IMG/VR virus record: IMGVR_UViG_3300008952_000353
Coordinates: 1 to 20,987 of that record
Origin: a virus
Strand: one strand, 5' to 3'
DNA length: 20,987 nt
A program made the translations under genes and the position numbers. Positions 2,838 to 19,517 of the stretch are shown here, piece by piece. The notes under the pieces were generated by a model, which worked only from the letters and a program-made list of their open reading frames with translations, had not been told where the DNA came from and did no database searches. Within the stretch, counting starts at the first letter, position 1; every line of letters begins with the position of its first letter.

Positions 2838-3941
2838 TTATTTAACTAAAAAATTACATTTTTCCCGTACTGCTCCGAGCCCGTAACGTTTCGTTGTAAT
2901 TAAATACTCAAAGTAATTTTCATACATTTTAGCCACCAAGTCAATGGTGAAGTTCTCTTCCGCATAGAGGCGACATTCTTTAGGGCTAATGGTTTCAATG
3001 ATGTTAAGAGCGTGATAAAACTCATTTAAGGAACGGCACCTAAAGCCTGTTTTTCCGTGAATATTATATTCTGCTAAGCCTCCCCAATCAGTTGATAAAA
3101 CCGGAGTACCAGAAATGAAAGCTTCTATCATTGCCCATCCACACGGCTCCGCATAAAGACTGGGCATTATTAAAGCTTTGGCGTTGGCGAGAAGCTCTTT
3201 GCGTTCATCGCCGCTTACGGTAGATATATATTCCGCCAGAGGGTTGTTTTTTTTGAGTTCATTTTTTAAGTTCTGTGGGCCCACAAATTTGATTGGAGTA
3301 GAAGAGGCTTTAGATAAATTTTGGGCAATATCAATCCCTTTGTTGTTTATCATACGCCCCAAGAACAGCAAATAGTTTTGTTTTTTATTTTGGTAGGTGA
3401 AATCCTCAAAATAGAAACCCGGAGGGATAACGTGATCGGTAAAAGGCGGAAAATTATTTTTATGTATAGAAAATTGTAATTTATGGAGCTGCGCGTAACT
3501 TTCGAAAACCTTGAACGGAGCAAAAGCCGAATCGTATCCAATGCTGGGCTCCACAATGGTAAAATCTTTAATAAGTTGGTCGCAGCAGGATTGATGACCA
3601 ATACCCCAAAAAGCTAAAACAAAATCATTTTCACCTTGTTTGTTTTTTTTAATTAAATTGGCGGAATTTTTATTAAATTCTTTATGAACCTCATTTTCAA
3701 TACTTTGAGTCAGAAAATTTTTCCATGATTGTTTTTTATAAACTTCTTCGTGGGTGGAGCGTGAAACCACATTAAAGTGTTGAGTGCAAGGCACTTTTGA
3801 GTCGGGATGACCATAGTGAAAAACAGTATGACCCCTGTGGGTCATGGCTTTGCAAAATTTATAAACTTTTTGCGTGAAAGCACATAAGGTTATTTCTTTG
3901 CGTGTAGGATGAACAGGAATCGATAAAACATGAAAAACCAT
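2838..3941 (-). CDS. Glycosyltransferase, GT-B fold, GT4-like
   Basis: 367 residues. The N-terminal half has a Rossmann-like start (FHVLSIPVHPTRKE) and an FWGIGH segment. The C-terminal half carries the nucleotide-sugar site: YLLFLGRMINNKG at about 190-205, then MPSLYAEPCGWAMIEAF with the retaining E-x7-E pair (E265, E273), then GTPVLSTDWGGLAEYN. These are hallmarks of the Glycos_transf_1/GT4 group, which transfers sugar from an activated donor with retention of configuration. Donor and acceptor cannot be read from sequence. In a phage it could modify host surface sugar, virion protein or DNA. It has its own sigma-70-type promoter, overlapping back to back with the promoter of the phoH operon. 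The gene is more AT-rich in places than the capsid genes, with many lysine AAA and isoleucine ATA/ATT codons. Confidence 0.88.
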   Translation of the reverse strand: MVFHVLSIPVHPTRKEITLCAFTQKVYKFCKAMTHRGHTVFHYGHPDSKVPCTQHFNVVSRSTHEEVYKKQSWKNFLTQSIENEVHKEFNKNSANLIKKNKQGENDFVLAFWGIGHQSCCDQLIKDFTIVEPSIGYDSAFAPFKVFESYAQLHKLQFSIHKNNFPPFTDHVIPPGFYFEDFTYQNKKQNYLLFLGRMINNKGIDIAQNLSKASSTPIKFVGPQNLKNELKKNNPLAEYISTVSGDERKELLANAKALIMPSLYAEPCGWAMIEAFISGTPVLSTDWGGLAEYNIHGKTGFRCRSLNEFYHALNIIETISPKECRLYAEENFTIDLVAKMYENYFEYLITTKRYGLGAVREKCNFLVK

Positions 3942-3953
3942 TATTTATTTTTA

Positions 3954-3981
3954 ATAATAAAGGGTTTTAGTGCCCAGTCAA
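3954..3981 (-). promoter_or_regulatory. Sigma-70-type promoter of the glycosyltransferase
   Basis: On the minus strand, TTGACT (3981-3976) and TATTAT (3959-3954) are separated by 16 bases. The predicted start is about 5 bases from the ATG at 3941. The -35 box shares bases 3980-3981 with the divergent phage-type motif. Confidence 0.55.
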
Positions 3982-3992
3982 GTGTAATCTTT
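3980..3992 (+). promoter_or_regulatory. Phage promoter-like motif, phoH-terminase operon
   Basis: The bases read AAGTGTAATCTTT. AAGTGTAAT is identical to the copies before the portal and protease genes. The core is 8 bases from the ATG at 3997. No further copy of the motif is seen until 9732, so this one would drive the whole phoH-to-terL operon. Confidence 0.6.
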
Positions 3993-3996
3993 GTAG

Positions 3997-4719
3997 ATGA
4001 GTAGAAAAAAAAGATCTACGGCGTCGGGAAAAATAATATCACTTGCGGAAAATAAATACAAGCTTTATCTTAAAAATTTTGAGTTAACAGAAAAACAACA
4101 TCAGTTTCTAAAAATAGCCTTTGACAAAAACACTAAAATAGTTTTTGTGTCGGGTCCAGCAGGTTCCTCCAAGACCTTCATTTCTATTTACGCTGCATTG
4201 CAATTGTTTAACATGAATATGAATCAAGATTTATTTTATGTTCGCACTATAGCAGAAAGCGGAGAAAGAAATTTAGGGAGTTTACCGGGGGATGTGGATG
4301 AAAAATTTCACCCATTCATGATGCCCCTTCAAGATAAGCTTACGGAGCTTTTATCTACAGACCAAATAAAAATGCTTATGGAAGAAAAAATAATACAGTG
4401 TGCTCCTATTAATTATTTACGAGGTGCAAGCTGGGACAATAAATTGATTATTGCTGATGAGTCTCAAAATTTTACAAGAAAAGAGCTCGTGACATTGATT
4501 ACCCGTATTGGAAATAATTCTAAATATTTTATATGTGGAGATCCTATGCAATCAGACATTAACGGTAAAACAGGTTTTGCCCCCGTTATGGAGCTTTTTG
4601 ACGATAATGAGTGTAAAGAAAAAGGTATACATACATTTCGTTTCTCTGAAGAAGACATCCTGAGAAGTGAAATTTTAAAATTTATAGTAAATAAACTAGA
4701 AAACAACCCAATAAAATAA
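3997..4719 (+). CDS. phoH: PhoH-like P-loop ATPase
   Basis: 240 residues. The Walker A motif is GPAGSSKT (G53-T60), with Ser in place of the usual Gly before Lys. Walker B is LIIADESQNFT (D154, E155) and is followed by LITRIGNNSKYFICGDPMQS, the PhoH signature with a conserved GD-x2-Q. PhoH-family proteins are ATPases found in many aquatic phages. Their exact task is unsettled, with RNA metabolism and phosphate stress proposed. The length matches the phage short form, which lacks the PIN domain of PhoH2. The gene is first in the plus-strand operon that continues through terL. The start at 3997 is fixed by the motif 8 bases upstream; no Shine-Dalgarno site is visible. Confidence 0.93.
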   Translation: MSRKKRSTASGKIISLAENKYKLYLKNFELTEKQHQFLKIAFDKNTKIVFVSGPAGSSKTFISIYAALQLFNMNMNQDLFYVRTIAESGERNLGSLPGDVDEKFHPFMMPLQDKLTELLSTDQIKMLMEEKIIQCAPINYLRGASWDNKLIIADESQNFTRKELVTLITRIGNNSKYFICGDPMQSDINGKTGFAPVMELFDDNECKEKGIHTFRFSEEDILRSEILKFIVNKLENNPIK

Positions 4720-4729
4720 ATTATAAAAA

Positions 4730-5131
4730 ATGGCTAGTATATTTTGTCCAGAATGTGGAGCTAAAAATAGTTACACTTTAAAGAAACCCAACTTCTGTCA
4801 AAGCTGTGGGGAAACCTTTGCAGCTTTTGGAATGTTGAGTGCGTCGGCGTCCAAGTCTAGTCTAAGAGCATCAGCTGGGAAAGAAGGGGAAGAAGTTATC
4901 CCTACATTATCTAAGTTAGAATATGATATTGATTTGTCCTCGTCGGCAACCAAAACCACTTTAGAGGATTTGGTTAATAACCCTATAAAGCCCGAAGATA
5001 TAACCTATAGGGCCACGGCCAAAACCAAACATAAAAAAATGTCTCCTGAAGATTTCGCCAGAGTCTCCCAAGCTGAATGTGCCTCTTCCCAAGGTAAGTC
5101 TAGGGACATTAGCAGTGGAGAAAAAGAATAA
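4730..5131 (+). CDS. Zinc-ribbon protein
   Basis: 133 residues. The N-terminus has two cysteine pairs, CPECG (residues 6-10) and CQSCG (23-27), forming a zinc ribbon. The rest is low-complexity, Ser-, Ala- and Lys-rich and probably disordered, except for short helical parts near EYDIDL and SPEDFARV. Zinc ribbons of this sort often mediate contact with RNA polymerase or nucleic acid. The direct overlap with a sigma-like gene makes a transcription cofactor role worth considering, but this is inference. It starts 10 bases after phoH ends. The A-rich sequence before the ATG holds no Shine-Dalgarno site. Confidence 0.7.
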   Translation: MASIFCPECGAKNSYTLKKPNFCQSCGETFAAFGMLSASASKSSLRASAGKEGEEVIPTLSKLEYDIDLSSSATKTTLEDLVNNPIKPEDITYRATAKTKHKKMSPEDFARVSQAECASSQGKSRDISSGEKE

Positions 5132-5831
5132 AGAGAGATATGAAGATAAATGTGATGTTATAGACAACGAGATAAGAAAGAGGTACTACAAATGGCATCT
5201 TCATGCTTTGGCGTGGATAGACTTTGATGACGTATCACAAATTATTCGGACTCACATTTACAACAAATGGAATCAATGGGATCAATCTAGACCGATAGAG
5301 CCATGGATAAATAAAATTATATCCAACCAGTTAAAAAATATTCTTCGTAACAATTATTCTAATTTTGCTCGCCCTTGCATAAGTTGTCCGCACAACCAGT
5401 CAAAGGAACAAGGAAAAGGGCAAATATCCAATTTATGTTCCGTAACTAAAAGTGGGCTACAATCTGAAGAATGTGATTTGTATGCTAAATGGTACAAAAC
5501 ACGAAAACAAGCTTATGATATTAAAATTCCTGTTTCATTAGAGACGAATGTTTATGATCGATGTACGTCACCAGAGGACCATTATGACATCGGGAGCGCT
5601 GTATCATCTATGCATTTAAGAATGCGACAGTTTTTAAACGATCGTCATTACATTATTTATAAAATGCTTTTTATTGACCATATCGAAGAAGATGTTGTTG
5701 CACGGGTATTAGGTTACAAGAGTAACGAAAAGGGGAGGAAGGCTGGATACAAACAAATTAAAAACTTAAAAAACTTTTACAAAAAAATTGCTAAAAAAAT
5801 ATGCAACGAGACAGATGTTTTTTTTGAATGA
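5079..5831 (+). CDS. Phage sigma-like factor with four-cysteine insertion
   Basis: 250 residues. Residues about 45-95 (WIDFDDVSQIIRTHIYNKW, then QWDQSRPIEPWINKII, then NQLKNILRNN) match sigma-70 region 2, which binds RNA polymerase and the -10 element. A segment with C100, C103, C119 and C131 follows, likely a zinc-binding insertion. The C-terminal part (about 195-245) has an HTH pattern, EEDVVARVLGYKSNEKGRKA, like region 4. It is probably the middle/late sigma factor that redirects host polymerase to phage promoters. The ATG at 5079 overlaps the zinc-ribbon gene by 53 bases. A GTG at 5115 with AGGGA 8 bases upstream is an alternative start that loses only 12 non-conserved residues. Its stop overlaps the next start (ATGA). 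Confidence 0.8.
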   Translation: MPLPKVSLGTLAVEKKNKERYEDKCDVIDNEIRKRYYKWHLHALAWIDFDDVSQIIRTHIYNKWNQWDQSRPIEPWINKIISNQLKNILRNNYSNFARPCISCPHNQSKEQGKGQISNLCSVTKSGLQSEECDLYAKWYKTRKQAYDIKIPVSLETNVYDRCTSPEDHYDIGSAVSSMHLRMRQFLNDRHYIIYKMLFIDHIEEDVVARVLGYKSNEKGRKAGYKQIKNLKNFYKKIAKKICNETDVFFE

Positions 5832-6898
5832 AAGAGTATATTTTAAAACCAGAAGAGAAAGAAAAAAGTCTTCAATTATTTGAGGAGCTTAATGGAGACT
5901 TAAGCGCAACCACCAAGAAACTTTTCAACGACGAAAATGAAAAGGGTAGTACGGTCCGCGGAAGAGCATTGCGAAAATATTGGATAGAGAAGGGGTTAAG
6001 TTATAGGACGAAAGTAAAAAAAAGAGTGGTCAAACACTTTTTAACGGATGACGAAAAAATTTTTGTAAGAAAGCATTATTGCCCTGAGATGACAAAACTA
6101 GAGGTAGGGCAATTGCTATGGCCTAAAGACGCGGAGAGTAAAGGTTTTCCTGAAACAGATAAGTTTATAGCTTTGTGCGAATACATCTCTAAAGAATTCC
6201 CTTCTGCGGTTAACATGCGGGATGACGCAGCTGGGGAAAAATATACTCCCCCTCAAATTTTATCCACCGCGGTGAAGAGGTTAAACAAAGTGGCCTCACA
6301 AGAATTCGATACATCCAAAATGAATTTGCAGGATCGTAAATGTGTAGAAAAATTAATTACATATTTGAATGCCCCTAGGTTTGTTCAGGTTATTGGTTCT
6401 TATATAACCAAGCAAAGCCGGGATCTTTTTGAATCTGAGTATATTCGAAGTACGTGGGACAAACCGGATTTAACTTCTGATGAATTGAATTTGTATGTGA
6501 ATGTATGTATGGATTACGTCAACCTTAAGGAAATAGAACAGCAAAAACAAAAATTAAATCTTATGTTTGATGATACGGAAGGTCAAAATGATTTAACTAT
6601 GAGGTTAACAGAGATGCTTAAAACGAAAGCTGAAGAATATAACCAATGCATTAATCGTATAGACAAAATGCTCGCAAAATTAAATGGGGAGAGGGCGAAA
6701 CGTATAGCTAACCAACAACAACGTAATGCTTCTGTTATTTCATTGGTTCAACTTTTTCAAGACGAAGAAGAGAGAAAGCTGATGATAAAAATGGCGGACA
6801 TGCAAAAAAGGGCCGTGAAAAAGGAAGCTGACGAAGTAGAAAAGATGCCGGATTGGAAGGCTCGCGTGTTGGGGATTAGCAAAGAGGACGCGATATAA
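5828..6898 (+). CDS. Candidate terminase small subunit / DNA-binding protein
   Basis: 356 residues with no recognised catalytic motif. The N-terminal 50 residues (EEKEKSLQLFEELNGDLSAT, then TVRGRALRKYWIEKG) suggest a helical DNA-binding domain. A middle domain contains DRKCVEKLITYLNAPRF. Residues about 230-330 form a long charged coiled coil (MLKTKAEEYNQCINRIDKML). Helical DNA binding plus an oligomerising coiled coil, two genes upstream of terL, fits a small terminase subunit, but most are 100-200 residues, so this would be unusually large. The start overlaps the sigma stop by 4 bases and the stop overlaps the next start (TAATG), implying coupled translation. Alternatively it is a regulator of the sigma-like factor. 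Confidence 0.5.
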   Translation: MKEYILKPEEKEKSLQLFEELNGDLSATTKKLFNDENEKGSTVRGRALRKYWIEKGLSYRTKVKKRVVKHFLTDDEKIFVRKHYCPEMTKLEVGQLLWPKDAESKGFPETDKFIALCEYISKEFPSAVNMRDDAAGEKYTPPQILSTAVKRLNKVASQEFDTSKMNLQDRKCVEKLITYLNAPRFVQVIGSYITKQSRDLFESEYIRSTWDKPDLTSDELNLYVNVCMDYVNLKEIEQQKQKLNLMFDDTEGQNDLTMRLTEMLKTKAEEYNQCINRIDKMLAKLNGERAKRIANQQQRNASVISLVQLFQDEEERKLMIKMADMQKRAVKKEADEVEKMPDWKARVLGISKEDAI

Positions 6899-7845
6899 TG
6901 GAAAGGGTGGTTACTAAAATTTATCCTTGTGCAAATTGTAAAAAAGAATTTACGAGTAGAGCTTCTTTACATAAGCATCTTAAACAGCATGATTTGAATT
7001 TAGCTTCCTATTATACTAAGTATTACCCCCGACTTAATAAGCTTACTGGAGACCCTCTTCCTTTTAAGAGGTTTGAAGAATATTTTGAAAGAGATTTTTC
7101 CACCAAGCAACAGTTGTTGAAATGGTGCGAAGAAAACCCAAGAGAGGAAGTGAAAGAATATATACTTTCGTTATTGCAAAAAAGGCATTGGAAAAAACAA
7201 AGAAAATACGGCCCTTTCCATTTAGAAACAACAAACTCCTTTATACCTTCAATTCAAATTTATAAGCAACTCTTTGGGAGTTATAATGCGGCTTGCGCAG
7301 CTATTGGGTGTGAGCCTTTATATGACAAGAATTTACCTAAAGATTTCTTTACGAAAAAGGTTCCGGAAGACTTGACTATTGCTATAGATACCCGTGAGCA
7401 AAAGCCCTTGAAATTTAGCTGTAAAAGCAAAATTTTAAAACTTGACATAGGGGACTATACAACCCTTGGAGATCATTATACTTATACATTTGTGGATAGA
7501 AAGTCCGGAAGCGATTTGCAGGGCACATTGAATAAGCATAACGTAGACCGATTTAAACGCGAGATTGAACGCGCCAAGGAAATGGATTCTTATTTGTTTG
7601 TTGTAGTTGAATCTAGCGTCCAAAAAATAATTAAAGAAAATAAAATTTTTAATCGTCGGACTAATATGGATTATGTGCTAAAACAGGTGAAAGAAATTTC
7701 TCATGAGTATGATCGCGTGTGTCAATTTATTTTTGCAGAAAACAGGGAAAGATCTGCCGCCTTAATTCCGCGTTTATTGATGCACGGAAAGAAAGTTTGG
7801 CAAACGGACGTACAGTATTTTTTAGAAAAAAATGAGCTGGGATGA
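6898..7845 (+). CDS. C2H2 zinc finger fused to ERCC4-type nuclease
   Basis: 315 residues. The N-terminus is a classical C2H2 finger, C-x2-C-x3-F-x5-L-x2-H-x3-H, with C11, C14, F18, L24, H27 and H31. The middle (about 110-145, with FGSYNAACAAIGCEP) resembles the repeats associated with HNH/homing endonucleases. The C-terminal domain is an ERCC4/XPF nuclease: IAIDTREQKPL with D164, GDY with D186, and VDRKSGSD giving D200-R-K202-x3-D206, the ERKx3D active-site motif. Such nucleases cut branched or junction DNA. The gene overlaps terL by 14 bases, so it is made with the packaging motor; trimming of branched DNA before packaging is a plausible role. A selfish homing-type origin is the alternative. 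Confidence 0.8.
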   Translation: MERVVTKIYPCANCKKEFTSRASLHKHLKQHDLNLASYYTKYYPRLNKLTGDPLPFKRFEEYFERDFSTKQQLLKWCEENPREEVKEYILSLLQKRHWKKQRKYGPFHLETTNSFIPSIQIYKQLFGSYNAACAAIGCEPLYDKNLPKDFFTKKVPEDLTIAIDTREQKPLKFSCKSKILKLDIGDYTTLGDHYTYTFVDRKSGSDLQGTLNKHNVDRFKREIERAKEMDSYLFVVVESSVQKIIKENKIFNRRTNMDYVLKQVKEISHEYDRVCQFIFAENRERSAALIPRLLMHGKKVWQTDVQYFLEKNELG

Positions 7846-9731: not shown

Positions 9732-9744
9732 AAGTGTAATTTAT
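9732..9744 (+). promoter_or_regulatory. Phage promoter-like motif, portal gene
   Basis: Exact consensus AAGTGTAATTTAT, with its core 11 bases from the ATG at 9752, in the 54-base gap after terL. No TTGACA-type -35 box is found 16-18 bases upstream. Confidence 0.65.
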
Positions 9745-11802: not shown

Positions 11803-11815
11803 AAGTGTAATTTAT
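11803..11815 (+). promoter_or_regulatory. Phage promoter-like motif, protease/scaffold gene
   Basis: Exact consensus AAGTGTAATTTAT, identical to the portal copy over 17 bases including the following TT and preceding T. The core is 12 bases from the ATG at 11824, which favours that start over the GTG at 11818. Confidence 0.65.
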
Positions 11816-11823
11816 TTGTGCGT

Positions 11824-15801: not shown

Positions 15802-15814
15802 TGGTGTAAATATA
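15802..15814 (+). promoter_or_regulatory. Phage promoter-like motif, connector-like gene
   Basis: TGGTGTAAATATA, with its TGTAAA core 8 bases from the ATG at 15819. It lies in the 20-base gap after the preceding stop, which has no terminator. Confidence 0.5.
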
Positions 15815-15818
15815 TTGT

Positions 15819-16361
15819 ATGCCAGACCGATCTAAAACCCCGTATTTAGTGAGCACTCTTGCTACGGGCATTTATAACGACGAGTTTGATTCAGACACGG
15901 GCTTTGCAACACTCACTTCGATATCTGGGTGGTTGGCCAATAATGTAGGTTTATTAAATACGACCTTATATACGGCTTTTTCTGGTTCAGGGCAAAGCTC
16001 TACAGACGATACCGTATTTCAACCTTCTGGTCAATTTAGGTTTGAAGAGGGAGATATATATAAACAATTGTATTTAACCAACTATTATACAAAAAAAGCT
16101 CGAACTATTCTTAAAGGCATTGGAAGTTCTGTTGATTTCATTACATTGCGAGAAGGGGATTCCACAATTACGCGTACCAACAAAAACGAAGTAGCTAAGA
16201 CTTACAGAGGGTTCGCTAAGGACGCTCAGGAGCGATTAGAGCTACTTGTAGCTAAATATAATATCTACGATGCGGCCCCTGTCCAAGTAGCCGGTACAGA
16301 CGCCGCTATCAGTGCTAGTGGCGATATTTATTCTGCTTATGATTATCGAGGGTACGGTTAA
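15819..16361 (+). CDS. Head-tail connector or neck-type structural protein
   Basis: 180 residues. It lacks signal and membrane segments. The N-terminal half has beta- and Thr/Ser-rich segments (SDTGFATLTSISGWLANNVG). The C-terminal half is helical: FITLREGDSTITRTNKNEVA, then KTYRGFAKDAQERLELLVAK. A short charged 'REGDSTI' turn followed by a long helix is common in adaptor proteins that join portal and tail, and the gene lies downstream of the head genes, where adaptors usually are. This is a positional inference. Its stop codon overlaps the stop of the convergent tail-type gene by 4 bases, with no terminator between them. Confidence 0.55.
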   Translation: MPDRSKTPYLVSTLATGIYNDEFDSDTGFATLTSISGWLANNVGLLNTTLYTAFSGSGQSSTDDTVFQPSGQFRFEEGDIYKQLYLTNYYTKKARTILKGIGSSVDFITLREGDSTITRTNKNEVAKTYRGFAKDAQERLELLVAKYNIYDAAPVQVAGTDAAISASGDIYSAYDYRGYG

Positions 16362-17947
16362 TCCTCGTATCCCGGAGGAACTCCTTTGTAAGCCCCGTCT
16401 TTAGTCTTATTTTTGCCTAATGGGAAATAATTGATGCTAGGAAACCTAAAGTAACTTCCGTTCATAAATAACCCATTGTCAGTATCATTGGAGCCCCCTA
16501 CTTGGGTAGAAAAAGCAATATCTACAGTTTCATTATCTCCTATAGCGCTACTAAAGGTTTCGCTTTCGAGCCTAGCATTTTTAACTTCAAATACTAGTGC
16601 TATTGGTCCTTTTGCTCCACTGGAAGCGGCTTCATGAAGAGTTAATGTGAAAGTATGTTTTTGTGGTGAAGCTAAAGCTTCAAACAAATTATTTTTGTTA
16701 AGTTCTGAGACAACCGCCGACAAGCTTACATCTATATTCATGGGTAAGTCTATAACCCGCGCATAGCCGAAGGTGTTTCCTAGGCGTTGCAGAATAGTGC
16801 GCGTCATTGGTACGCTGATGGTCATGCTTTGCAAGTGAGCTTCACCGTCTCCGTTCATATCCGTAAAGCCTTGGTAATCTCCCGAATTACTCATGGAAAA
16901 TGTAATATCTCCCGGTCGTAAAGCGGCCATTTTAGCGGTTCCCGTCTCGTACATCGGAACACTAAAACGAAGGAATCTTGGAACATTCTTCCACGGACCG
17001 GAAGATTGGCTAAATATGTAATCGGCGCTATCTACACCCGCGATCCCGGTTTGGCCGTTTACTTGGTCTACAGCAGGGATAGCAGGAAAATTAAGACCAT
17101 TGCCAGATACTAGCGGACTAGTTGCCGACGGGCCACTGGAACCACCCTCGAAAGGAAAGTAGGTTCCTGATGCAGAGCTATCGGTTTTTATATTAAACCC
17201 TTCCACAGAAAGGGAAGCTGTAGGAATAGCTCCAACAGCAGCATTTACGTTATAGTCAGAAATGAATCCGTTTCCAATGCTGATAACTTGAAAGTCTTTT
17301 GAGCTAGGAGAAACATATTTGGTGATAGGATCATTGTCCAAATCTCTCGACTCCCTTCCTACCAAAATAAAATAATTGTTTCCTATGGTGTCTTCGATTA
17401 GGCCCGATAAAGCGCTGTACCCTGACACAGCCAAATCGCCTGTCCAATAACCTGCTGAAGCTGGTCTAAATCCGCCTTCCCAGTCGCTCGTAGGGATATT
17501 AAATCCTAATTTTCTTTCATTTTGTCCGTCTGTTAAATAGTAATCGAAGTTTAAATTAACAGTAGGAGACTCCATTACAATGGAATCAAGCCTTGATAAT
17601 TTGCCGAATTCATTAATATCTTGCCTGTTGATAGTAAAATCAAAATTTACAGATTGTATTCGATTCAATGGTTCCACCAAGGTTCTGTATACGCTACCGC
17701 TTGGTCCGTAAACTTTCTGAGTGGAGAAGTTGGCGTCAACAGCTCCGGTGGCAGGATCATTAATACCGCTCCAACGTAAAGAGCCCGTTTGAAAAGCTGA
17801 ATTTTGGGATAAATTAAGGTTATAGGTCCATTGTCCCGGACCTGAAGATTGATCTACTTCCCCTTGACCCGACTGCAGATGATAACCTGTGGAAGCGGGC
17901 GAAACGTAAAGCGCTTCGCTTTGATAGATGATACGATTACGAGCCAT
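16358..17947 (-). CDS. Tail-type structural protein, paralogue A
   Basis: 529 residues, start MARNRIIYQSEALYVSPAST. It is a clear paralogue of the gene upstream at 18036-19517. Shared blocks include the N-terminus, RQDINEFGKLSRLDSIVMES (about residue 105), GYSALSGLIED, GIGNGFISDYNV/AAVGAIPTAS and RLGNTFGYARVIDLP near the C-terminus, then GDNETVDIAFSTQVGGSNDT. Between these blocks the copies differ in length and sequence. Size, beta-rich composition and lack of cysteines fit a major tail or tail-tube-type protein with inserted domains; no family name can be given from motifs alone. It has its own promoter-like motif after the terminator of its paralogue, so the two are transcribed separately. 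Confidence 0.7.
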   Translation of the reverse strand: MARNRIIYQSEALYVSPASTGYHLQSGQGEVDQSSGPGQWTYNLNLSQNSAFQTGSLRWSGINDPATGAVDANFSTQKVYGPSGSVYRTLVEPLNRIQSVNFDFTINRQDINEFGKLSRLDSIVMESPTVNLNFDYYLTDGQNERKLGFNIPTSDWEGGFRPASAGYWTGDLAVSGYSALSGLIEDTIGNNYFILVGRESRDLDNDPITKYVSPSSKDFQVISIGNGFISDYNVNAAVGAIPTASLSVEGFNIKTDSSASGTYFPFEGGSSGPSATSPLVSGNGLNFPAIPAVDQVNGQTGIAGVDSADYIFSQSSGPWKNVPRFLRFSVPMYETGTAKMAALRPGDITFSMSNSGDYQGFTDMNGDGEAHLQSMTISVPMTRTILQRLGNTFGYARVIDLPMNIDVSLSAVVSELNKNNLFEALASPQKHTFTLTLHEAASSGAKGPIALVFEVKNARLESETFSSAIGDNETVDIAFSTQVGGSNDTDNGLFMNGSYFRFPSINYFPLGKNKTKDGAYKGVPPGYED

Positions 17948-17951
17948 TTAG

Positions 17952-17964
17952 ATAAATTACACCT
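17952..17964 (-). promoter_or_regulatory. Phage promoter-like motif, paralogue A
   Basis: The minus strand reads AGGTGTAATTTAT, one change from the consensus, with its core 8 bases from the ATG at 17947. It lies 17 bases downstream of the U-tract of a minus-strand terminator, so it must restart transcription. Confidence 0.65.
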
Positions 17965-18035: not shown

Positions 18036-19517
18036 TTAGGTTATGCTATTAACAAACCCAGTGCCCGTCCACGAGCCTTGTTTGGTTTTAGCGTCACCTA
18101 GCACCCAATAAGGAAGGGTTGTCCATCGTCCATAAGAACCGCGCATAAAGATACCGTTGGAGGTATCGTTAGCCCCACCAACTTGGGTGGAGAAGGTGAT
18201 ATCTACAGTTTCATTGTCTCCAATAGAACTACTGTAGCTTTCTCCTTCGAGGCGAGCTCCTTTAACATCAATAACCAAGGCGTCAGCCCCGGGTTGGCCT
18301 GTGCCCGCTGATCTACGCAGTGTTAAACGGAAATCCGTTTTGTTTGTAGAAGCAAGCTTTTCAAACAGATTGTTTGTGTTTAATTCAGAAACAATAGCAG
18401 AAACCGTTACATCAATATTTAATGGAAGGTCAATAACTCGGGCGTATCCGAACGTATTACCTAGTCTCCCCAGAATCGTGCGGCTCATTGGAACAGAAAC
18501 ACCGAAGCTTTGGATATGAGCTTTGCCGTCTCCGCTTAAAACAGTGAAACCGTCATAAGAATCATTTACACTTTCGTCTTCGTCTGCGTCAATAAACTCA
18601 AGCAAAAGATCTCCCGGTCGAAGAGCCGTGATCGTGTTGTCTGCAACAGTGTTTCCGTCAACATAATCTCCTGTGGTGGATATTGTCCCGCCCCGGAAGT
18701 TATAGTTGATGGCAACTTGTTGACCGTCGGTATCGTTAACACCGGGAACTTGGTTGCCGGTTACATTGCCGTCTCCAGCGGCTCCTTGATCGAGAGCCCC
18801 GGAGATTTTGTCGTCTACGCGAATATTGAAAGCTTCAACCGTAACGCTGGCCGTTGGGATAGCGCCTACCGAAGCATCGATTGAATAGTCACTAACAAAG
18901 CCGTTTCCGATGCCAATAACATCAAAATCGTTTGCGGTTGTAGTGACCGTATCTCCTTGAACATCAGTTCCTTCTTTAGAGGTGACAATAAAATAATTAT
19001 TTCCTTGCGTATCTTCAATTAGCCCCGAAAGAGCCGAATAGCCGGATACACATCCGTCACCCGTCCACGCAGCTTCGTTTGCCGCCCGTGCAGCACTGCC
19101 AACTGGTATTCCGGTGCTCCCTGAACAGTTTGTGGGAAGGTTGAATCCCATCTTTCGTTCGTTTCCGCCGTCACAGAGATAATAATTGAAATCCAAACCT
19201 ACCGTTGGAGATTCCATCACTATAGAATCCAAACGTGAAAGTTTGCCAAATTCATTGATATCTTGACGGTTAATAGTGAAATTAAAGTTTGCAGACTGTA
19301 CGCGATGCAAAGGCTCAATTAAAGTGCGATTAAGCAGGTTGTCCAAGTTTGTCCCATCTGCTCCATCAGGGAAAGTTATCCCTGTGACTCCTGTCCAGTT
19401 GGTATTACCTGCAGTATCAATACTTGTGTTAGCATTGCCTGTTTGCATATGGTAACCAGTGGATGAAGGCGATATGAATAACGCCTGACTTTGATAAATT
19501 ACTCTGTTTCTAGCCAT
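18036..19517 (-). CDS. Tail-type structural protein, paralogue B
   Basis: 493 residues, start MARNRVIYQSQALFISPSST. It shares blocks with paralogue A along its whole length: RQDINEFGKLSRLDSIVMES (about residue 85), YYLCDGGNERKMGFNLPT, GYSALSGLIEDTQGNNYFIV and RLGNTFGYARVIDLPLNIDV. The middle (about 250-310) is Asp-, Asn- and Gly-rich and quite different from A. The codon choice is slightly richer in GC than in A, with more GGT, ACC and GTT, which suggests it is the more strongly expressed copy. Tandem duplication followed by divergence is the simplest explanation. A major tail protein and a minor variant, or two layers of the same structure, would both fit. Confidence 0.7.
   Translation of the reverse strand: MARNRVIYQSQALFISPSSTGYHMQTGNANTSIDTAGNTNWTGVTGITFPDGADGTNLDNLLNRTLIEPLHRVQSANFNFTINRQDINEFGKLSRLDSIVMESPTVGLDFNYYLCDGGNERKMGFNLPTNCSGSTGIPVGSAARAANEAAWTGDGCVSGYSALSGLIEDTQGNNYFIVTSKEGTDVQGDTVTTTANDFDVIGIGNGFVSDYSIDASVGAIPTASVTVEAFNIRVDDKISGALDQGAAGDGNVTGNQVPGVNDTDGQQVAINYNFRGGTISTTGDYVDGNTVADNTITALRPGDLLLEFIDADEDESVNDSYDGFTVLSGDGKAHIQSFGVSVPMSRTILGRLGNTFGYARVIDLPLNIDVTVSAIVSELNTNNLFEKLASTNKTDFRLTLRRSAGTGQPGADALVIDVKGARLEGESYSSSIGDNETVDITFSTQVGGANDTSNGIFMRGSYGRWTTLPYWVLGDAKTKQGSWTGTGFVNSIT

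Follow-up and report, generated by a model that had tools for sequence, protein, structure and literature searches.

A large group of uncultured, mostly marine phages encodes its own sigma factor, in which a module of four cysteines lies between regions 2 and 4, and a short, strand-oriented motif, GTGTAAT, precedes genes in the same genomes. The explanation that we favour, and consider probable, is that of a phage late sigma factor that redirects the host RNA polymerase to GTGTAAT, with a metal-stabilised linker replacing the sigma finger. It rests on the sigma homology, the cysteine invariance, the conserved neighbourhood of the gene, and the motif together with the way in which it is oriented and distributed. 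The stretch analysed here (the window) is a 20,987-bp virus record (IMG/VR IMGVR_UViG_3300008952_000353, positions 1 to 20,987), which derives from a long-tailed phage, as judged from its relative G001 with a 2,273-aa tape measure protein.

An earlier sequence-only reading had placed a sigma-like gene at 5079-5831. Gene and open reading frame are real, the mechanical start being GTG 5079, but this start is probably too long; the true start is likely GTG 5115, which yields an ECF-type sigma factor of 238 codons (5115-5831, plus strand). This start was chosen because the codon at 5115 sits at a conserved position, with ATG instead of GTG in one clade, and the frame is closed just upstream in several relatives, an in-frame stop directly preceding the equivalent codon in L016, L020, L025, L032 and L034. 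Region 2 was located at 5214-5354 (plus strand, residues 34-80) by a match to Sigma70_r2 (PF04542) at 0.0029, below the curated cut-off, and would be expected to serve -10 recognition and core binding. A region 4-like helix-turn-helix domain with an invariant GYKQIKN helix follows at 5586-5810 (plus strand, residues 158-232). While the window protein alone stays under the curated cut-offs of Pfam and NCBIfam, PF04542 is matched above its cut-off by 6 of 13 related records in one set and by all 5 in another. Moreover, the sigma70-ECF profile TIGR02937 spans both region 2 and region 4 of the relative L103 (NZWA01000041.1; E 1.7e-9, residues 29-191), the alignment covering profile positions 24-148 of 165, with scores under the curated cut-off of 42.9 bits (37.6 bits for L103, the best member tested, and 17.0 bits for the window protein).

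The relatives were drawn from IMG/VR and one metagenome-assembled genome, and two partly overlapping scans confirmed 490 and 443 of them. Searching the GenBank phage set by tblastn returned no relative of the four-cysteine sigma, and a match to the T4S1 sigma was rejected as short region-2 similarity only. L103 is a 77-kb phage contig of the four-cysteine sigma group that had been binned in a Flavobacteriales MAG; this assignment may be wrong, the early promoters of the relative G011 being of the TTGACT/TATACT type and not Bacteroidota-like.

An AlphaFold model of the window protein, built with 59 relatives, shows two helical domains at modest confidence (mean pLDDT 76, pTM 0.43), joined by a linker that is partly disordered (residues 131-151, pLDDT under 50) and modelled without metal. 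Structure prediction of the protein alone had been proposed as a check by the sequence-only reading, and it returned a sigma-like fold: the leading PDB fold matches (Foldseek, VIA) are sigma factors, region 2 of the model lying on SigR at 2.7 A over 76 residues and residues 161-233 on region 4 of SigW at 2.5 A over 63 residues. Since the VIA Z-scores of 7-8.5 are modest and in a range that can reflect a common arrangement, the sigma identity rests on the profiles and the fold together, which confirm its product as an ECF-type sigma factor made up of two domains, region 2 and region 4. The region-2-like and region-4-like parts noticed earlier were thus borne out by PF04542 in relatives, TIGR02937 in L103 and the SigW superposition. 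A profile search of solved-structure sequences gave no match to the four-cysteine sigma, and SATB1, which had appeared as a solved-structure relative in a sequence search with the single protein, was discarded as spurious.

The genes of the window follow in the order PhoH, zinc-ribbon, sigma-like, a 356-aa protein of unknown family, ERCC4-type nuclease, large terminase and portal. The PhoH-like ATPase (3997-4719, plus strand) is the first gene of the putative sigma-containing operon. It is followed by the zinc-ribbon gene (4730-5131, plus strand), whose product combines an N-terminal CxxCG-x12-CxxCG with a variable tail. The reported overlap of this gene with the sigma gene holds, and amounts to 17 nt with the corrected start GTG 5115. 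It lies immediately upstream of the sigma gene in all 154 loci with enough flank (154/154), and a cofactor role for its product is possible. The ERCC4-type nuclease (6898-7845) carries an N-terminal C2H2-like zinc finger, lies directly upstream of the large terminase and is conserved in both clades, and a small membrane protein at 192-620, which by its sequence resembles an MscS-type channel fragment, is conserved across clades beside the packaging operon. The position of the sigma gene between PhoH and the packaging genes is kept from the window to G009 and G011. This location, together with the wide occurrence of region 4-like folds as DNA-binding modules, would suit a DNA-binding packaging or replication protein with borrowed sigma-like helices that is not a transcription factor. 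We regard such a role as very improbable, because region 2, the sigma-specific part, is the best-conserved part of the protein (21 of 53 columns invariant); in addition, both domains are present in sigma order, and the putative late-promoter motif described below needs a reader.

The four-cysteine module occupies 5373-5477 (plus strand) in the region 2/4 linker, with codons for C88 (5376-5378), C91 (5385-5387), C108 (5436-5438) and C120 (5472-5474), so that the spacing in the window protein is CxxC-x16-C-x11-C. The sequence-only reading had named C100, C103, C119 and C131; counted from 5079, the first two stand, while the last two were off by one, the four being C100, C103, C120 and C132, which equal C88, C91, C108 and C120 from GTG 5115. 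It had also held that cysteines varying among homologues would speak against its reading, and all four were found to be kept in 173/173 full-length relatives. Across 59 sequences, down to 43% identity, the cysteine segment has 6 invariant columns of 35, of which four are the cysteines, and the loop between the second and third cysteine varies in length between clades. Compared with TIGR02937, the insertion between region 2 and region 4 adds 38 residues in L103 and 49 in the window protein. As read from the alignment, the four cysteines are not a chance feature, and because they are invariant while the remaining loop is variable, the module is probably a structural metal site, most likely for zinc. 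The region 2/4 linker of characterised ECF sigmas passes into the active-centre cleft and out through the RNA-exit channel (PMC6372665), and the four-cysteine module should hence sit in or near this path.

Set beside named families, the protein resembles the ECF (group 4) sigmas, such as Mtb SigH and SigL and E. coli SigE, in having region 2 and region 4 only, in the same order and with the same predicted folds, and its linker is likewise expected to run through the active-centre cleft (PMC6372665). It differs from them in that their short, metal-free linker is replaced by an insertion of about 38-49 residues with four invariant cysteines, in that no -35 element is detectable, in being phage-encoded within a structural-gene operon, and in scoring under the family cut-off. 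Cysteines in the region 2/4 linker also occur in CorE and CorE2 (former ECF44, now ECF238), in which the CXC cysteines of the linker matter for activity, and CorE additionally needs a C-terminal cysteine-rich domain (PMC8999054). The present protein lacks such a domain, a single, non-conserved cysteine (C230) following region 4, and its linker pattern is CxxC-x16-C-x11-C instead of CXC. A four-cysteine cluster inside a sigma factor is likewise found in OrbS, the iron-starvation sigma of Burkholderia, but there the cluster (CX2CX3CX5C) lies C-terminal to region 4 and senses iron (PMC9023288), whereas here the cysteines stand between regions 2 and 4. ECF52 (SCO4117) shares a zinc-finger domain within an ECF sigma polypeptide, zinc being presumed here from the cysteine pattern; the zinc finger of ECF52, however, belongs to a long extension at the C-terminus and precedes transmembrane helices (PMC5826349), whereas in the present protein 6 residues follow the long region-4 helix seen in the model. 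These precedents, including the CXC of the CorE linker, establish that ECF sigmas with metal-sensing cysteine clusters exist (PMC8999054; PMC9023288), and by analogy with CorE, CorE2 and OrbS the cysteines might serve not as a structural zinc site but to sense a metal or the redox state (through iron, Fe-S, copper or a disulfide) and so turn the sigma on or off. This we hold to be improbable: the CxxC...C...C pattern, with its pairs far apart, contrasts with the tight clusters of CorE and OrbS, the strict invariance of the cysteines and the variable loop between the pairs look structural, and a late sigma of a lytic phage would have no obvious need for a sensor. A structural zinc module thus remains the preferred reading, and the architecture as a whole is without a named counterpart among the families searched here.

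The sequence-only reading had proposed the sigma gene as the best candidate to read a repeated motif. The motif is real: by an unbiased ranking of all 7-mers in the 30 nt before genes, GTGTAAT/AAGTGTAA was found as the top 7-mer upstream of the window genes (5.1e-7, Bonferroni 8e-3), and four of the five GTGTAAT copies in the window fall within 30 nt before genes. A first EM motif search, which converged on GC-rich noise, was superseded by this ranking. Putative late-promoter motifs of the window include GTGTAAT at 3982-3988 (plus strand), 8 nt before the PhoH start, at 9734-9740 (plus strand), 11 nt before the portal start, at 11805-11811 (plus strand), before the gene at 11818, and at 17956-17962 (minus strand), before the gene 16358-17947, as well as GTGTAAA at 15804-15810 (plus strand), before the gene at 15819. 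The portal motif (9734) occupies the same place in G001 (26549), and a motif also precedes the portal gene in G009 and G011. The gene 16358-17947 and its neighbour 18036-19517 are adjacent minus-strand paralogues (529 and 493 aa, 70-74% DNA identity in blocks) that both match one same gene in G001 and in G008, which points to a probable lineage-specific duplication.

The same word recurs across the relatives. In the distant relative G009, AGTGTAA is the top 7-mer upstream of genes (7.6e-17), with AAGTGTA and GTGTAAT-type words also high; GTGTAAT is the top 7-mer in G014, G015 and G016, and GTGTAAT/AAGTGTAA is among the strongest 7-mers in every long relative checked. In nine long records, the motif precedes 69 of 538 genes in the forward orientation and 10 in reverse, the reverse cases partly reflecting divergent pairs; several of the nine are close relatives, so that they are not nine independent tests, the divergent groups among them being G009, G011, G014-G016 and the window's clade. 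In five unrelated phage control stretches, by comparison, it precedes only 2 of 199 genes, and the same 7-mer procedure recovered TATAAATA, a T4-type late promoter, in the T4-like pelagiphage HTVC008M. Divergent pairs of the form ATTACAC-N1 to N39-GTGTAAT were observed in 22 non-redundant cases (L134, L140, L195, L203, L262, L268 and others), some with 1, 7 or 8 bp between the boxes. A reading of the motif as a palindromic operator was ruled out, since the sites are strongly gene-oriented and the spacing of the divergent pairs ranges from 1 to 39.

The motif most often stands 7-11 nt from the start codon, and Shine-Dalgarno-like words are less frequent downstream of it (3/48 versus 94/390, p 0.003), which together point to leaderless or near-leaderless messages. 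No informative upstream position that could represent a -35 box was found in 96 and then in 132 non-redundant motif sites, and the one word clearly enriched upstream of the motif, TTACAC, is the motif in reverse, contributed by divergent neighbours. In G011, host-type promoters (TTGACN-N17-TATACT) occupy 9.8-22.9 kb and GTGTAAW sites follow at 27-53 kb; in G014, at 116 kb the longest record, the motif is restricted to the structural part, every site lying beyond 32 kb. This segregation of host-type promoters and GTGTAAW looks like an early/late division. In the window itself, the PhoH late motif (3982, plus strand) overlaps, within 3942-3996, a minus-strand host-type TTGACT with an AT-rich, -10-like TATTAT, which could drive the glycosyltransferase gene 2838-3941, and the same arrangement, a TTGACT/-10 match overlapping a late motif, is seen in G003. 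The left end of G001 (L184:437-6400) carries a series of short minus-strand ORFs with a repeated 'VMRD/VMRE' stretch in common; the repeated DNA element behind it may surround start codons, possibly representing early promoters or translation starts.

Which factor reads the motif bears directly on the explanation. The enrichment of the motif, its orientation and its near absence from controls indirectly support the sigma gene as the best candidate reader. That it is the only sigma-like gene, as the sequence-only reading had it, is correct for the window, where it gives the sole PF04542 match, and no other sigma was found in the 13 related records of the first set; across the group, however, a second sigma is present in relatives beyond the window's clade, namely in 3 of 18 related records (G014, G015 and G018). 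Those of G014 (L282:4930-5820, primary-like, about 296 aa) and G015 (L289:4213-4818, short, about 201 aa) lie away from the four-cysteine sigma and suggest a sigma cascade in some members. Another motif reader is therefore possible: the sigma may be real and serve other promoters, while GTGTAAT is read by a host sigma, by a second phage sigma or by a host polymerase that a further phage protein has modified. The virus records, classed as linear, are often fragments, so that early genes and other factors may be missed, and the sigma operon of the window itself bears the motif. Nevertheless, each of the nine long records, which span divergent clades, contains both the motif and the four-cysteine sigma, whereas a second sigma is confined to those three records; the host-type promoters of G011 and G003 differ in consensus and lie mostly in another part of the genome, and the five control stretches are nearly devoid of the motif. 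We therefore consider a different reader unlikely, and retain the four-cysteine sigma as the probable one.

From these data we infer zinc, polymerase binding, motif recognition, leaderless transcripts, linker position and positive feedback as the parts of a mechanism. The host holoenzyme would read early genes from ordinary promoters, and the phage sigma, once made, would capture the host core RNA polymerase in late infection. An RNA-polymerase beta subunit (PF00562) was found in none of 18 related records, which is consistent with use of the host enzyme; the single-subunit polymerase profile PF00940 gave 0 matches, as did its control, and this search is uninformative. Region 2 would read GTGTAAT as a -10-type element (TGTAAT aligned to TATAAT), giving late transcripts that are leaderless or have leaders of a few nucleotides, and region 4 would dock on the beta flap. 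As no -35 sequence is detectable, region 4 would be expected to bind the core or to contact DNA non-specifically. The compact four-cysteine linker module, probably zinc-stabilised, would stand in place of the extended sigma finger. The motif at 3982, before the operon of PhoH, zinc-ribbon and sigma, suggests positive feedback, with the sigma under its own control. Several observations count against this explanation, among them that the recognition helix of region 4 is invariant while no -35 box turned up, and that the sigma gene is preceded by a putative late promoter of its own.

A functional parallel would be T4 gp55 with its coactivator gp33, likewise a phage-encoded late-gene specificity factor. 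The T4 late promoter is short and consists of a -10 element without a -35 element (PMC2988020), and GTGTAAT, as a putative promoter, is similarly short with no detectable -35 partner. In T4, however, gp55 and gp33, which resemble region 2 and region 4, respectively, are encoded by two genes, whereas here both parts form one chain, connected by the cysteine module. No match was found to a PHROG described as T4 late sigma, and a search for the bacterial-type clamp (PF02767) found none in six records, which are often fragments. A review of T4 late transcription raises the lack of any known fused late sigma as a question (PMC2988020), and the four-cysteine sigma family is a natural candidate for one. 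More tentatively, and with less than even confidence, we propose that in this one-piece late sigma the zinc module of the linker, in or near the cleft or the RNA-exit channel, does the job of the sigma finger, so that leaderless late mRNAs would arise from a 7-bp promoter that consists of a -10 element alone and coincides with or adjoins the start codon.

In the open-access literature, we found no description of a four-cysteine sigma or of the GTGTAAT motif, an absence that is not thereby proven. Hundreds of uncultured phage contigs carry the four-cysteine sigma and none in the GenBank phage set searched does. The motif offers a sequence-defined candidate late promoter for a phage group without a cultured member in that set. 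One protein and one 7-bp element make up a simple bench system, in which two questions could be put to the test: what may substitute for the sigma finger, and if -10-only promoters can be served by a late sigma consisting of one chain, the latter a point that the T4 review raises explicitly (PMC2988020). If the tentative proposal is true, the one-piece zinc-linker sigma would resemble archaeal TFB and eukaryotic TFIIB in function, with their combination of a zinc ribbon and a reader.
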